Positions 27,758-35,678 of a DNA stretch of 64,000 bases are shown here, one piece after another; position 1 is the stretch's first letter, and each line of letters starts with the position of its first letter. Location of the stretch: assembly GCA_026393985.1 (NCBI GenBank), contig JAPKZB010000091.1, positions 62,001-126,000 on the forward strand, read 5' to 3'. The notes beneath the pieces were generated by a model. It had not been told where the DNA came from, did no database searches, and worked only from the letters and a program-made list of their open reading frames with translations. A program made the position numbers and the translations under genes. Origin of the DNA: Acidobacteriota bacterium. GTDB lineage: Bacteria > Acidobacteriota > Terriglobia > Bryobacterales > Bryobacteraceae.

Positions 27758-27774
<17 letters not shown>
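26731..27774 (-). CDS. RND efflux periplasmic adaptor (membrane fusion protein)
   Basis: A 347-residue HlyD/AcrA-type adaptor. ATG 27774 is chosen since it gives signal peptide MKRTLSLALLCALGLSA; an upstream GTG at 27792 would add six residues. The biotinyl-lipoyl halves are LHARVQGFVEKVEVDRGSVV and VTAPFDGVITARHVHPGAL, separated by an alpha-helical hairpin (about 75-145). It overlaps the pump gene by 17 nt and is the last gene of the tolC-pump-adaptor group. The order adaptor-last is the reverse of the common mexAB-oprM order. Confidence 0.9.
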
Positions 27775-30829
<3,055 letters not shown>

Positions 30830-30833
30830 GGCT

Positions 30834-32171
30834 TTACGGCACCTTGCTCAAAAACGAGTTGAGGTCCCCTTGCGTGGCGGCCAGGGCGAGTTCGGCGCGC
30901 CAGACGTTGAGCAGGGCCAGCGCGTGGTCGATTTCGGCCTGCGTCAACAGACGCTGCGTGTCGGTCACTTCGTTCAGGTTGGCGAGGCCGGCGCGGTAGC
31001 GGGCCGTGGTCTGTTCGAGGGTCTGGCCGAGCAGGGCGACCTGCCGGGGCGTGATGGTGGCGAGGTTGCGCGCCGTGGCGACAACGATGCGGGCGCGGTC
31101 GAGGGCGGCGGTCAGTTCCCGTTCGAGCAGCGACTGGCGGGAGGATTCGCGCGAGATGCGCTGCTGCTCCACCTGCCGGCGGGCGCGCAGGGTTTTGTAC
31201 TCGAGCAGGGGGAAGGTGACCGTTGCGCCGATGGCCCAGTTGCCCGTGTTGGGCGCCAGACCCGCAGCCCCGCCCGGAAACGGGCCGTTGAGATTGGTGC
31301 CCGCGCCGCGGCCGAAAACGTTGGCCTGCGTGTTCAGACGCGGGTACCAGCTTTTGTCGAGCACTGTCTGCCGGGACTTGATCTCGTCGATGGCCGCCTG
31401 CTGTTCGCGGATGACGGGATGCGTGGCGGCGAGGCCGGCGGGCGGCGCGGCGGGAGGCAGGGCGCGGAACGAGTTGACGGGCGTTCCCGGGCCGGCGAAC
31501 TGCGCGAGCGTGGCGTGGGCGGTGGCGACCGCTTGTTCGGCACGGACCACCTGGGCTTGGGCGAGCAGCACTTCGGATTGGATGCGGGAGAGGTCGGCGC
31601 CCGGCCGCAGGTCGGCGTGGACGAGCGCCTCGGTCAGGCGCACGAGCTCCTGCGACCGCGTGACGGCGGCCCGGGCCGAGAGCACGGTCTGTTCGGCGGC
31701 CAGCGCCGTGAGATAGGCATCGGCCGTGGCGGTGGCGACTTCGAGTTCGGTGCGCGCCACGGCGGCCTCGGCGCGGGTCTTGCCGGCGGCGGCGGCGGCC
31801 ACTTCGGCTTCGCGGCGGCCGAAGTCAAACGGCTCCCAGTTGATCATCAGGCCGACGGCGGTGCCCCAGACGTTGGTGAATTGAGCACCGGTGGGCAGCA
31901 GCGGACCCGAGATCGGCGAAACCACCGTCTGCGGCAGCAGCAGGCCGAAGACGTTATTGGCCGTGGCCCGGTTGACCTGGCCGAGCATTTCGGCCCGCGG
32001 CAGATAGGCCAGGCGCGCGAGATTCACCCCGGCGGCGGCTTCAGCAACCTGGTCGAGAGAAACCTGCACGGAAGGGTACTTGGCCGTCGCCTGCTTGACG
32101 GCATCGGGCAGGCGAAGCTCCTGCGCGATGGCGCAGCAGGACAGGACGAGAAACACAGAAATACGGCGCAA
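30834..32171 (-). CDS. TolC-family outer-membrane efflux channel
   Basis: A 445-residue outer-membrane factor with signal peptide MRRISVFLVLSCCAIAQ and two outer-membrane-efflux repeats, each rich in long amphipathic helices (VARTELEVATATADAYLTAL, ERELTAALDRARIVVATA). The start codon is TTG and follows the lpxA stop directly with no spacing, implying translational coupling. It would complete the tripartite pump with the adaptor and RND protein encoded next. Confidence 0.9.
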   Translation of the reverse strand: MRRISVFLVLSCCAIAQELRLPDAVKQATAKYPSVQVSLDQVAEAAAGVNLARLAYLPRAEMLGQVNRATANNVFGLLLPQTVVSPISGPLLPTGAQFTNVWGTAVGLMINWEPFDFGRREAEVAAAAAGKTRAEAAVARTELEVATATADAYLTALAAEQTVLSARAAVTRSQELVRLTEALVHADLRPGADLSRIQSEVLLAQAQVVRAEQAVATAHATLAQFAGPGTPVNSFRALPPAAPPAGLAATHPVIREQQAAIDEIKSRQTVLDKSWYPRLNTQANVFGRGAGTNLNGPFPGGAAGLAPNTGNWAIGATVTFPLLEYKTLRARRQVEQQRISRESSRQSLLERELTAALDRARIVVATARNLATITPRQVALLGQTLEQTTARYRAGLANLNEVTDTQRLLTQAEIDHALALLNVWRAELALAATQGDLNSFLSKVP

Positions 32172-32984
32172 CTAGGTCAATGTATCACCCGGACGGCCTT
32201 CCCTTGCGATGCCGCGCTTGGAGGAGCGAATGAAGTCGACCAGATGTTGGGTATGCTCGCCGGGCAGCTCGGCCTCGATGCGGGCGAGGGCATCGGCGAG
32301 CTTGAGGCCGGAGCGGTAGAGGAGACGGTAGGCCTGCTTGAGTGGGGCAATGTCGGCCACGGTGAAGCCGGCGCGGCGCAGGCCGACGAGGTTCAGGCCG
32401 CGGGGCGCGATGTTGAACTCGGAGTAGAGAAAGTAGGGTGGAGCGTCGAGATTGACGCGGATGTTGCCGCCGATCATGGCGAGGCGGCCGATCTTTGAGT
32501 ATTGGTGGATGCCCACGCCACCCGAGATGAAGGCGCGATCTTCGACGGTGACGTAGCCGGCGATGAGGGCGCAGCTGGCGATGGTGCAATGGGAGCCGAT
32601 GGTGGCGTTGTGGGCGATGTGGCCGGAGGTCATCACGTAGTTGTGATCGCCGATGGTAGTGGTGGATTCGGGCTTGGTGCCGCGGGAGATGGTGTAGTGT
32701 TCGCGGATCTGGTTGTGATGGCCGATGGTGAGGTAGGAGCGCTCGCCGGTGAAGGCCCGGTCGAGCGGGTCGGTGCCGAGGACGGTGTGGGCGGAGATTT
32801 CGTTGTGGTCGCCGAGCGTAGTCCAGCGTTTGATGAAGACGTAGGGTTCAATCCGGCAGTGGGCGCCGATGCGGACATCGGACTCGATCAGACAGAAATC
32901 GCCGATGACGGTCTGGGGCCCGATGTGGGCGTCGGGGTGGACGCGCGCGGTGGGGGCGATGCGCGCGGAAGGATCGATGGCCAT
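32172..32984 (-). CDS. lpxA: Acyl-ACP--UDP-N-acetylglucosamine O-acyltransferase
   Basis: Catalyses the first step of lipid A synthesis, 3-O-acylation of UDP-GlcNAc. The 270-residue protein has the left-handed beta-helix hexapeptide repeats (IAPTARVHPDAHIGPQTVIG and following) up to about residue 190, the catalytic histidine in GHIAHNATIG, and the C-terminal helical domain (GLRRAGFTVADIAPLKQAYR). It is divergent from lpxD with only 25 nt between start codons, and it is followed without a gap by the efflux genes. Confidence 0.93.
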   Translation of the reverse strand: MAIDPSARIAPTARVHPDAHIGPQTVIGDFCLIESDVRIGAHCRIEPYVFIKRWTTLGDHNEISAHTVLGTDPLDRAFTGERSYLTIGHHNQIREHYTISRGTKPESTTTIGDHNYVMTSGHIAHNATIGSHCTIASCALIAGYVTVEDRAFISGGVGIHQYSKIGRLAMIGGNIRVNLDAPPYFLYSEFNIAPRGLNLVGLRRAGFTVADIAPLKQAYRLLYRSGLKLADALARIEAELPGEHTQHLVDFIRSSKRGIAREGRPGDTLT

Positions 32985-32985
32985 T

Positions 32986-33004
32986 GAACGCTATCATAGC
33001 GTTC
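32986..33004. promoter_or_regulatory. Perfect palindrome between divergent lpxA and lpxD
   Basis: GAACGCTA at 32986-32993 and TAGCGTTC at 32997-33004 are exact reverse complements separated by TCA. The 19-nt palindrome fills almost the whole 25-nt space between the two divergent start codons (32984 and 33010). It could be an operator shared by the two lipid A genes or a structure in the 5' end of both transcripts. With so little space, each promoter must lie inside the opposite gene or the mRNAs must be nearly leaderless. Confidence 0.5.
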
Positions 33005-33009
33005 GAGCT

Positions 33010-34029
33010 ATGAAAGTACGGGAAATTGCGGCGATGCTGGGGGCCGAGTGGTCCGGCGACGGGGAGTGCGAGATTACGGGCGCGGCGCCGATTGAAGAGG
33101 CCGGGCCGGCGGAGCTGAGTTTCGTCGGCAACGCCAAGGGCGCCAAGGCGGCCGAAACGACGGCGGCCGGCTGCCTGCTGGTCGCCCCCGGCAGCGAACT
33201 CGGCCGGACGCGGATCTACGTGCCGCAGCCGCGGGGTGCGTTTGCCCGCTGTCTGATGGCGCTCTACCCGCGGCGGCGGGCGGCGGCGGGGGTGCATCCG
33301 TCGGCGGTGCTCGGCGAAGGCGTCGAACTCGGCCCGGGCGTCAGCGTCGGGCCGCAGACGACGATCGGCGCGGGGACGAAGATCGGCGCGGGTAGCGAGA
33401 TCGGGGCCGGGTGCGCCATCGGCGCCGGGGTGACCCTGGGCGACCAGGCGCTGCTGCACGCCCGGGTCACGATCTACGATGGCGTCACCATTGGCGCCCG
33501 GGCCGTGCTGCACGCCGGCTGCGTCATCGGCGCGGATGGGTTTGGCTTCGTTTTGCACGAGGGCCGCTACCAGAAGTTCCCGCAGGTGGGCCGCGTCGAG
33601 ATTGGTGATGACTTTGAACTCGGCGCCAACGCCTGCATCGACCGCGCGGCGCTGGGGGTGACGCGTATCGGCCACGGCGTCAAACTCGACAACATGGTTC
33701 ACATCGCGCACAATTGCCAGATCGGGAACCATGTGGTGATTGCCGCGCAAACGGGACTGTCGGGCGGCGTCGTGGTGGAGGATTACGCGATCATTGGCGG
33801 GCAGGTGGGCATTGGGGATAAGGCGCGGATTGAGTCCAAAGCGGTGCTGGGAAGCGGCTGCGGCGTGCTGACGTCGAAGATTGTGCACGGCAACCAGGTG
33901 GTTTGGGGCACGCCGGCGCGGCCGCTGAAAGAGTATCTGGCGCAGTTGGCCAATGTGGCGAGGCTGGGCGATTTGAAGGCAGAGGTGAAAGAGCTGCGCG
34001 TCCGTGTGGAGGAGCTATGCAAAAAGTAG
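33010..34029 (+). CDS. lpxD: UDP-3-O-(3-hydroxyacyl)glucosamine N-acyltransferase
   Basis: Adds the N-linked acyl chain in lipid A synthesis. The 339-residue protein has the N-terminal uridine-binding domain (KVREIAAMLGAEWSGDGECE, then GPAELSFVGN), hexapeptide repeats from about residue 97 to 280, the catalytic histidine region MVHIAHNCQIG, and a C-terminal helix. ATG 33010 is chosen because it gives the family N-terminus; the frame is open into lpxA. It overlaps the next gene by 13 nt. Confidence 0.93.
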   Translation: MKVREIAAMLGAEWSGDGECEITGAAPIEEAGPAELSFVGNAKGAKAAETTAAGCLLVAPGSELGRTRIYVPQPRGAFARCLMALYPRRRAAAGVHPSAVLGEGVELGPGVSVGPQTTIGAGTKIGAGSEIGAGCAIGAGVTLGDQALLHARVTIYDGVTIGARAVLHAGCVIGADGFGFVLHEGRYQKFPQVGRVEIGDDFELGANACIDRAALGVTRIGHGVKLDNMVHIAHNCQIGNHVVIAAQTGLSGGVVVEDYAIIGGQVGIGDKARIESKAVLGSGCGVLTSKIVHGNQVVWGTPARPLKEYLAQLANVARLGDLKAEVKELRVRVEELCKK

Positions 34030-35678
34030 TGGCTTTGGCCATCGCCCTGGCGGCGGGACTGGCGGCGCAGGAGTTCGACCTGGTCGTCTATGGTGCGACG
34101 GCAGGCGGGGTGATGACCGCCGTCTCCGGCGCCCGGCATGGATTGAAGACCGTGCTGCTTGAACCCGGCCGGCACGTGGGCGGCATGGTGACCGGGGGCC
34201 TGTCCGGAACCGATATGGGCAAGGGCGAGGTCATCGGTGGCATGGCGCTGGAGTTCTACTGGCGCATGGGCCGGCACTATGAGATGGACCGCCATCTGCA
34301 ACAGGTGGCTTGGATGCCCGAACCTGGGGCCGCCGAAAAGGTGATGCGGCAGATGCTGGCCGACGCCGGGGTGACCGTGCTCTACGGGCACCGCCTGCGC
34401 GAGAAAACGGGTGTCCGCAAGCAGGGCGACCGCGTGGCCGAAGTGACGATGGAGAACGGCGCCCGCTTCCGGGCCAGGGTTTTCGCCGATTGCAGCTACG
34501 AAGGCGACCTGATGGCGCAGGCCGGCGTCTCCTACACCTACGGCCGCGAGGGTCAGAAGGATTACGGCGAGTCGCTGGCCGGCGTGCTGGCCCACACCCG
34601 CAACCACAACTTCGCCGTCGACATCCCTGCCCGTGATGCGAACGGAAAACTGCTGCCAGAAATTTCGGCCGAACCGCGCGGCGAACCCGGCAGCGGCGAC
34701 AAGCGCATTCAGGCCTACAACTTCCGCGTCATCGCCACCAAGGTCCCCGCCAACCGGCTGCCCTGGCCCAAGCCGGCCAACTACGACCCGGCCCGCTACG
34801 AACTGCTCGCCCGTTACCTGACCGCGATGACCGGCTACATGGGCCGGGCGCTGACCATGAACGAGGTGGGTTTGATTCGCATTATTCCCAACGGCAAGGC
34901 CGACTTCAACAACCGCGGCGGCTTTTCGACCGACTACATCGGCCGCAACTACACCTATCCCGAAGGCAGCTACGCTGAACGGGCGCGCCTCTGGCAGGAG
35001 CACATCGACTACCAGCAGGGCTTCTACTACTTCCTCGCCAACGACCCGCGCGTGCCGCCGGCCCTGCAGGCCGAGGCCCGCGAGTGGGGCCTGGCCAAAG
35101 ACGAGTTCGCCGATACTGGCCACTGGCCGCACCAGCTCTACGTGCGTGAGGCCCGGCGGATGGTGGGCGGCTTTGTCGCCGCGCAGAAAGACCTGCAGAC
35201 CGAGCGCACCAAGCCGGACGTGATCGGCATGGGCAGCTACAACTCGGACTCGCACAACGTCCAGCGCCATGTCTCGTCCGAAGGGTTTGTCGTCAACGAA
35301 GGCAACGTCGAGGTGCCCGTGCAGCCCTACCAGATTCCTTACCGCGTCCTGTTGCCGAAGGCATCCGAGGCCGTTAACCTGCTGGTGCCCGTCTGCTTCT
35401 CGGCGAGCCACGTGGCTTATTCGAGCCTGCGCATGGAGCCGCAGTACATGATTCTGGGTCACGCGGCCGGCGTGGCGGCGGCGCTGGCCGTCGAGAAGGG
35501 CGTAAGCGTACAGGCCGTGCCAGTGGCCGACCTGCAGAAGACGCTGCTCGACGAAGGCGGCATCTTCGAGCAGGGCATCGAGATTCAACTGAAGGCCTTG
35601 GCGAGAATCCGGGCCCGATTCCAACCGTCGGCCCCGCCGGGCAAGGCGCCCTGGGCGCGGCCGGAGCGGCCGCGCTAA
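34017..35678 (+). CDS. Secreted FAD-dependent oxidoreductase (FAD_oxidored family)
   Basis: A 553-residue protein with signal peptide MQKVVALAIALAAGLAAQ followed by the nucleotide-binding fold FDLVVYGATAGGVMTAVSG and LLEPGRHVGGMVTGGLS. This matches the FAD-dependent family often mislabelled as xanthan lyase, common in Acidobacteria, Planctomycetes and Bacteroidetes, whose substrate is not established. HVAYSSLRMEPQYMILGHAAG near residue 465 is a conserved C-terminal block. ATG 34017 lies within the end of lpxD; the longer frame upstream lacks a leader. Confidence 0.85.
   Translation: MQKVVALAIALAAGLAAQEFDLVVYGATAGGVMTAVSGARHGLKTVLLEPGRHVGGMVTGGLSGTDMGKGEVIGGMALEFYWRMGRHYEMDRHLQQVAWMPEPGAAEKVMRQMLADAGVTVLYGHRLREKTGVRKQGDRVAEVTMENGARFRARVFADCSYEGDLMAQAGVSYTYGREGQKDYGESLAGVLAHTRNHNFAVDIPARDANGKLLPEISAEPRGEPGSGDKRIQAYNFRVIATKVPANRLPWPKPANYDPARYELLARYLTAMTGYMGRALTMNEVGLIRIIPNGKADFNNRGGFSTDYIGRNYTYPEGSYAERARLWQEHIDYQQGFYYFLANDPRVPPALQAEAREWGLAKDEFADTGHWPHQLYVREARRMVGGFVAAQKDLQTERTKPDVIGMGSYNSDSHNVQRHVSSEGFVVNEGNVEVPVQPYQIPYRVLLPKASEAVNLLVPVCFSASHVAYSSLRMEPQYMILGHAAGVAAALAVEKGVSVQAVPVADLQKTLLDEGGIFEQGIEIQLKALARIRARFQPSAPPGKAPWARPERPR

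Follow-up and report, generated by a model that had tools for sequence, protein, structure and literature searches.

LpxA and LpxD are canonically encoded in an lpxD-fabZ-lpxA operon. Bidirectional promoters with a symmetric -10 element are said to have been described by Warman et al. in Nat Microbiol in 2021. Two sources describe, in E. coli and Salmonella, promoters with a symmetric -10 that initiate in both directions, with a preferred spacing of 18 bp between opposite-strand starts (10 and 23 are also common) and with A at +1 and T at -18 as usual, not obligatory, bases (PMC12825309, PMC10268837). Their -11A and -7T are reciprocally paired (PMC10268837). Basal activity is reported there as too low for competition, and strong activation in one direction can repress the other (PMC12825309, PMC10268837). 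One of these texts quotes a 7-bp optimum, used below to predict the lpxA start from its -10 element, and it calls bidirectional promoters hardly studied in many bacteria (PMC12825309). Leaderless genes were tabulated in 3/3 Acidobacteria genomes, at 13.3% on average (Zheng et al. 2011, PMC3160421, Table 2); the word "divergent" does not occur in the main text of that paper. Duplication of lpxA or lpxD in individual lineages is on record (PMC3087551). Our literature search, which had most subscription journals outside its scope, found no shared leaderless lpxA/lpxD promoter and no acidobacterial start-site map.

The window is the whole 64,000-nt stretch of DNA analysed here, from a Bryobacteraceae assembly of 5.9 Mb in 96 contigs. 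The first-pass annotation had placed lpxA and lpxD on opposite strands, 25 nt apart across a perfect palindrome, and these coordinates were confirmed: lpxA starts at 32984 on the minus strand, lpxD at 33010 on the plus strand, and the gap of exactly 25 nt (32985-33009) reads TGAACGCTATCATAGCGTTCGAGCT. Both proteins scored above the curated NCBIfam equivalog cut-offs. The palindrome is laid out as GAACGCTA-TCA-TAGCGTTC at 32986-33004. An in-frame ATG at 32977, antisense to the lpxA start, was rejected as the lpxD start, since alignments to the LpxD profiles begin at residues 1-5 of the protein started at 33010. The features of the locus are as follows.

32172..32984, minus strand: lpxA, UDP-GlcNAc O-acyltransferase, 270 aa (NF003657, 292.3 bits, cut-off 226; Pfam Acetyltransf_11)
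32984..32986, minus strand: predicted lpxA transcription start with a 0-2 nt leader, from the -10 position, the genome peak and the 7-bp optimum in PMC12825309
32985..33009, no strand: 25-nt gap separating both start codons; 23-25/25 positions identical in 14 printed pair comparisons within an 8-genome subclade
32986..33004, no strand: 19-bp perfect palindrome GAACGCTATCATAGCGTTC, with 8-bp arms and a 3-nt centre; arms beyond the core are lineage-specific
32992..32998, no strand: TATCATA, the symmetric core (centre 32995) and a proposed -10 element for both genes, from the conservation of TATNATA
32992..32997, plus strand: candidate -10 hexamer TATCAT toward lpxD, 12 nt to the lpxD ATG
32993..32998, minus strand: candidate -10 hexamer TATGAT toward lpxA, 8 nt to the lpxA ATG
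32997..33002, plus strand: alternative weak lpxD -10, TAGCGT, 7 nt to the ATG, overlapping the core and fitting TANNNT only
33004..33006, plus strand: predicted lpxD transcription start with a 4-6 nt leader and no Shine-Dalgarno motif, from the -10 position
33010..34029, plus strand: lpxD, UDP-3-O-acylglucosamine N-acyltransferase, 339 aa (TIGR01853, 295.9 bits, cut-off 242.5; Pfam LpxD)

With a gap of only 25 nt, the promoters must overlap coding sequences or yield nearly leaderless transcripts, as the first-pass annotation had argued; the sequence supports this. On the same strand after lpxA, 27758-32171 (minus) encodes a TolC-family outer membrane protein and an RND permease, so that the lpxA transcript may carry an efflux system. 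After lpxD, a frame at 34017-35678 (plus), FAD-dependent oxidoreductase-like by eye, overlaps the lpxD 3' end by 13 nt.

The locus had been set against genomes in which lpxD and lpxA share one operon. The divergence stands, and the premise has to be amended, as this genome also has another lpxA after a fabZ-like frame and an unlinked lpxD. The second lpxA (42% identity) lies at C17:194480-195259 and is preceded by a frame that reads as fabZ by eye (HRYPFLLVDR); the second lpxD (34% identity) lies at C85:9215-10207 (loci L072 and L074, respectively). The window genome holds two lpxA/lpxD sets. An lpxD match at E <= 0.001 was found in 61/61 genomes, and for most of them a further match of 33-38% identity was among the matches listed.

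We propose, with a probability of roughly 0.8, that one symmetric -10 promoter is common to both genes and gives a leaderless lpxA mRNA and a leaderless or very short-leader lpxD mRNA. The core reads TATCAT on the plus strand and TATGAT on the minus strand, with -11A and -7T reciprocally paired. TATCATA would serve as a -10 element on either strand and form a minimal bidirectional promoter; sigma-RNA polymerase would bind the palindrome itself in either orientation, never in both at once, and the same DNA would be melted for an lpxA start leftward or an lpxD start rightward. Since the hexamers are separated by 8 nt from the ATG of lpxA and by 12 nt from that of lpxD, the lpxA mRNA would be leaderless (0-2 nt) and the lpxD mRNA would have a leader of about 4-6 nt with no Shine-Dalgarno site. 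The start codons are 26 bp apart, and the predicted starts would be about 18-22 bp apart. A spacing of exactly 18 bp would put C, and not the preferred A, at both +1 positions; A residues are found 1-2 nt farther out on each side. We counted in favour of the shared promoter that a hairpin in a transcript started upstream could enclose the lpxD AUG (z only -1.76), and against it that lpxD in the window's subclade lies 12 nt from the hexamer, beyond the leaderless optimum, and that TAGCGT at 7 nt could serve instead. The geometry, the symmetry, the conservation, the repeated occurrence between divergent genes and the lack of a Shine-Dalgarno-like motif can be read directly from sequence; the transcription starts, the mutual exclusion and any balancing of the two enzymes we infer. 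If the E. coli rule applies here, low activity need not set one direction against the other, and balancing is a hypothesis, not a conclusion.

The leaderless signature of the window genome was surveyed in 405 kb (20 stretches plus the window) with 247 first starts, taken crudely as the first ATG or GTG of long open frames. TANNNT peaked exactly 6 nt before these starts (18/247), with 0-7 occurrences at every other position from 0 to 39, including 7, 5 and 7 at the next three positions (7-9 nt). A peak at this position is the signature of leaderless genes. Leaderless genes are taken to have TANNNT about 10-14 nt upstream and no Shine-Dalgarno site; lpxA conforms, with TATGAT 8 nt from its ATG, and lpxD has TATCAT 12 nt away, TAGCGT 7 nt away and no Shine-Dalgarno-like motif. 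Among the 30 leaderless-type -10 elements in the 405 kb, one was TATNAT and none was TATNATA, and the symmetry is therefore unusual for the window genome. No -35 consensus was seen among these 30 promoters. TATNATA occurred at three sites in the 405 kb, in a survey in which the greedy ORF picker chose a wrong-frame ORF over lpxD.

Conservation was assessed on loci drawn from 61 relatives, 20 further stretches, 200 family genomes and 60 upstream stretches. The closest related contig encodes an LpxA of 96% identity, and lpxA was found at E <= 1e-60 in 184/200 family genomes. The count itself covers 111 family loci from 68 genera and is not one locus for each of the 184 genomes. It leaves out loci of other families (L021, L031-L033, L035, L037, L038, L040-L049), two family loci with lpxD and no lpxA on the stretch (L012, L036), duplicates (L082-L087, L090, L092, L105) and 80 loci, many on the same contigs (L171-L250). 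Divergent lpxD lay within 150 nt of lpxA in 89 of the 111 loci (55 genera), farther away in 7, and was absent from the stretch in 15. TATNATA was present between the starts in 58/89 adjacent loci, against a mean of 0.58 and a maximum of 4 of 89 after letter-shuffling of the gaps. By genus, 36/55 had it in at least one locus and 33 in all loci examined; it was missing from 31/89 loci (19/55 genera). Conservation of the palindrome in relatives, on which the first-pass annotation had staked its idea, held for this core; the 19-bp palindrome as a whole was not conserved, and its arms were kept in the window's subclade only.

The core lay mostly 6-9 nt from the lpxA start codon, and in most loci its spacing to a start codon equalled or approached that of leaderless genes in the window genome. 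TATNAT was found 6-10 nt from it in 63/89 adjacent loci (34 compact, 29 longer-gap). TATNATA was present in 34/45 compact loci, with gaps of at most 26 nt, and in 24/44 loci with longer gaps. A Shine-Dalgarno-like motif preceded lpxD in 2/45 compact loci versus 33/44 longer-gap loci. In one locus each of genera g4, g38, g40 and g75, the core hexamer was instead 5-6 nt from lpxD. Outside the family, lpxA and lpxD were about 900 nt apart with an open frame in between in L031-L033 and L040 (family f3), and in L042, of another family, they were close and divergent without TATNATA.

The core might alternatively be a one-way element, with TATGATA as lpxA's own leaderless -10 and lpxD served by TAGCGT at 32997-33002, a TANNNT 7 nt from its ATG, or by a promoter inside lpxA; we consider this unlikely. 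The core does occur at lpxA without an adjoining lpxD: TATNATA was kept in 7/12 lpxA promoters with TATNAT and no neighbouring lpxD, among 37 distinct loci (a hand count that omits L195, where the aligned start is not a start codon), in L031-L033, where lpxD is 912-955 nt off, and, at about 900 nt, in L149 and L170, two of the 7 loci with distant lpxD. The symmetric core therefore belongs in part to lpxA's own promoter. Some genera also have a separate -10 for lpxD (L160, L150, L111, L139). Many compact genera, however, have TATNAT 5-9 nt from the lpxD start and no other TANNNT within 3-14 nt, and in L124, L129 and L135 the core adjoins lpxD at 5-6 nt and is remote from lpxA. Among loci with a -10 for each of the two genes, the symmetric base was lost in g71 (L160) and g43 (L111, L139), which also speaks against a one-way element, and kept in g72 (L150).

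That seventh base of lpxA's TATNATA is needed only by the opposite strand, as its -12T. It was A in 32/34 compact and 20/29 longer-gap loci with TATNAT; with one locus per genus the figures were 15/17 and 18/23, a weak contrast. In L153 (genus g35), where lpxA has no adjoining lpxD, the same TATCATA may separate it from a different divergent frame that starts about 8-26 nt away.

The symmetric core recurs between other compact divergent gene pairs. The loci read were matches to the forward patterns, with control patterns counted only, and the names hom, sulfatase, permease and antitoxin come from reading translations by eye. The pattern AACGYTATSATARCG was found in 16/200 family genomes versus 1/200 for its reversed control. 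Ten places read by eye comprised one lpxA/lpxD pair, two hom-like pairs, three dut/thyX-like pairs, a site with a sulfatase, another with a permease, a match within a coding frame (L256) and an unassigned place (L269). The pattern CGYTATSATARCG gave 74 forward sites versus 28 for the control in 120 genomes. In 30 of its loci (L281-L310), an open frame started at most 20 nt off centre on one side or both in 22, on both sides in 8 and on neither in 8; by translation, 15 were dut/thyX-like and 3 were lpxA/lpxD.

The dut protein scored above its family cut-off. Its partner passed Pfam Thy1 (91.2 bits, cut-off 24.8) and fell below the TIGR thyX cut-off (27 against 87.9), and is therefore called thyX-like. 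In 30 dut loci read (L311-L340), out of 31 places listed among the closest members of the family, a thyX-like gene was divergent within 400 nt in 28, and TATNATA lay within 40 nt at 14, these 14 coming from 14/17 genera. At the dut/thyX-like pair of the window's own genus, TATNATA was found in 0/14 loci.

The wider pattern CATN{6,10}TATSATAN{5,10}ATG occurred 139 times versus 25 for its reversed control in 101 family genomes. Of 30 loci read, 27 were parsed, with coding-like sequence on both sides in 14, on one side in 11 and on neither in 2. The window genome has three such sites: a hom-like/99-aa pair (L371, C74 ~52552) with starts 11 and 9 nt from the TATSATA centre, a 97-aa/359-aa pair (L372, C63 ~81051) with starts 10 and 9 nt from it, and a site that adjoins an antitoxin-like 84-aa frame and has no clear partner.

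The first-pass annotation had favoured a protein bound to the palindrome that balances both acyltransferases, and had expected the palindrome at other lipid A genes. A dimeric regulator that co-represses or balances lpxA and lpxD from the 19-bp palindrome, on top of a shared promoter or in its place, appears somewhat less likely still than a one-way core. The perfect 8-bp arms would suit such an operator, and so would their conservation among close relatives. Within the 8-genome subclade of the window the arms were 10-12/12 identical in 14 printed pair comparisons. The two members farthest from the window genome share 11/12 arm positions with it, against 41-53% of four-fold sites; one arm position pair was C..G in three genomes, T..A in two and T..G in the other three. 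The arms-only pattern GAACGYTNNNNNARCGTTC, at up to 2 mismatches, had 52 matches in the genome versus 29 for its reversed control, an unexplained excess in which the best other matches carry 1 mismatch. One other genus also has the inner AACG..CG arms at lpxA/lpxD, and they occur at further divergent pairs.

Between genera, however, the arms vary, with no coupling of left and right: among 37 lineage representatives, 76 symmetric pairs were counted at offsets 4-9 versus 75.5 after permutation of the right arm (P = 0.49), and the arms were rejected as a family-wide palindrome on this test. The window's own arm symmetry (6/6) is extreme among these representatives. The 3.2-4.0-kb loci fetched for lpxC, lpxB, lpxK, fabZ-lpxA2 and lpxD2 contained no TATNATA. 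The 19-mer has a sole window site within 3 mismatches, and GAACGNTATNATANCGTTC had no other match with fewer than 3 mismatches in the 5.9-Mb genome; at up to 3 there were 6 sites, including the lpxA/lpxD one, versus 8 for the reversed control. The expectation of further copies at lipid A genes was thus not borne out. The sites that do recur lie mostly at promoter-like distances from start codons, as in the 22/30 loci above. Whole-genome searches with the palindrome and the arms and the scan of lipid A loci showed no regulon, and an operator was rejected as the leading explanation on these searches. A separate balancing protein is not supported: the part that is conserved is the symmetric -10 pair, the arms are uncoupled across the lineage representatives, and TATNATA did not turn up in the other lipid A loci fetched. 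LexA-type boxes have the form GAAC-N11-GTTC, which does not fit the palindrome.

Conservation of the outer arms is confined to the window's subclade. Their constraint there exceeds the needs of a -10 element alone and could reflect a lineage-specific operator or a preference in the discriminator or spacer; in the window lineage these arms may contribute something further.

Of perfect inverted repeats with arms of 8 or longer and a loop of 3 nt, the window contains 6. The bare palindrome is unremarkable within the window; its place and its core are far from chance. That it is a chance inverted repeat, or a hairpin in a longer lpxD leader, is very improbable: such repeats are common here (35 with loops of 0-8 versus a mean of 17.9 and a maximum of 26 in 20 mononucleotide shuffles) and a hairpin of -19.4 kcal/mol can form on 32975-33040, but its z-score is weak (-1.76, with 12/200 shuffles as stable), for which the RNA hairpin was rejected, it would hide the lpxD AUG, and other genera differ in the arms yet keep TATNATA.

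The shared symmetric -10 promoter would be a natural case of two nearly leaderless mRNAs made from one hexamer pair, and near the smallest possible shared promoter for two enzymes of the same pathway. Orthologous pairs in many genera seem to have kept the symmetric core, and a few split-promoter lineages show the fate of the symmetric base; comparative genomics could therefore test selection on bidirectionality itself. A broader idea, which we hold tentatively and at somewhat less than even odds, is that acidobacteria of the Bryobacteraceae type use minimal palindromic promoters genome-wide, with about 20-30 bp from start codon to start codon and one symmetric -10 giving two leaderless mRNAs. 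Same-pathway pairs such as lpxA/lpxD and dut/thyX would be held on them across many genera, and mutually exclusive polymerase binding would couple their output without a regulator.

Like the canonical lpxD-fabZ-lpxA operon, this locus encodes the same two acyltransferase families; unlike it, lpxA and lpxD diverge here, and the genome has lpxA2, behind a fabZ-like frame, and lpxD2 as separate genes. With the symmetric -10 promoters already known, the locus shares a short sequence that can suffice, a position between divergent genes, which is favoured on chromosomes, and a near-symmetric -10 on both strands with reciprocal -11A and -7T (PMC12825309, PMC10268837). It differs from them in that no more than about 6 nt would separate either start codon from its predicted start, and both mRNAs would therefore be leaderless or nearly so; its divergent starts are predicted from sequence, and 36/55 genera have kept the core at one orthologous gene pair. 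With the TA-led leaderless genes of Zheng et al. 2011 (PMC3160421), lpxA, and perhaps lpxD, has in common a TANNNT just before the start codon and no Shine-Dalgarno site; the difference is that here two such genes would use one element, in opposite directions.
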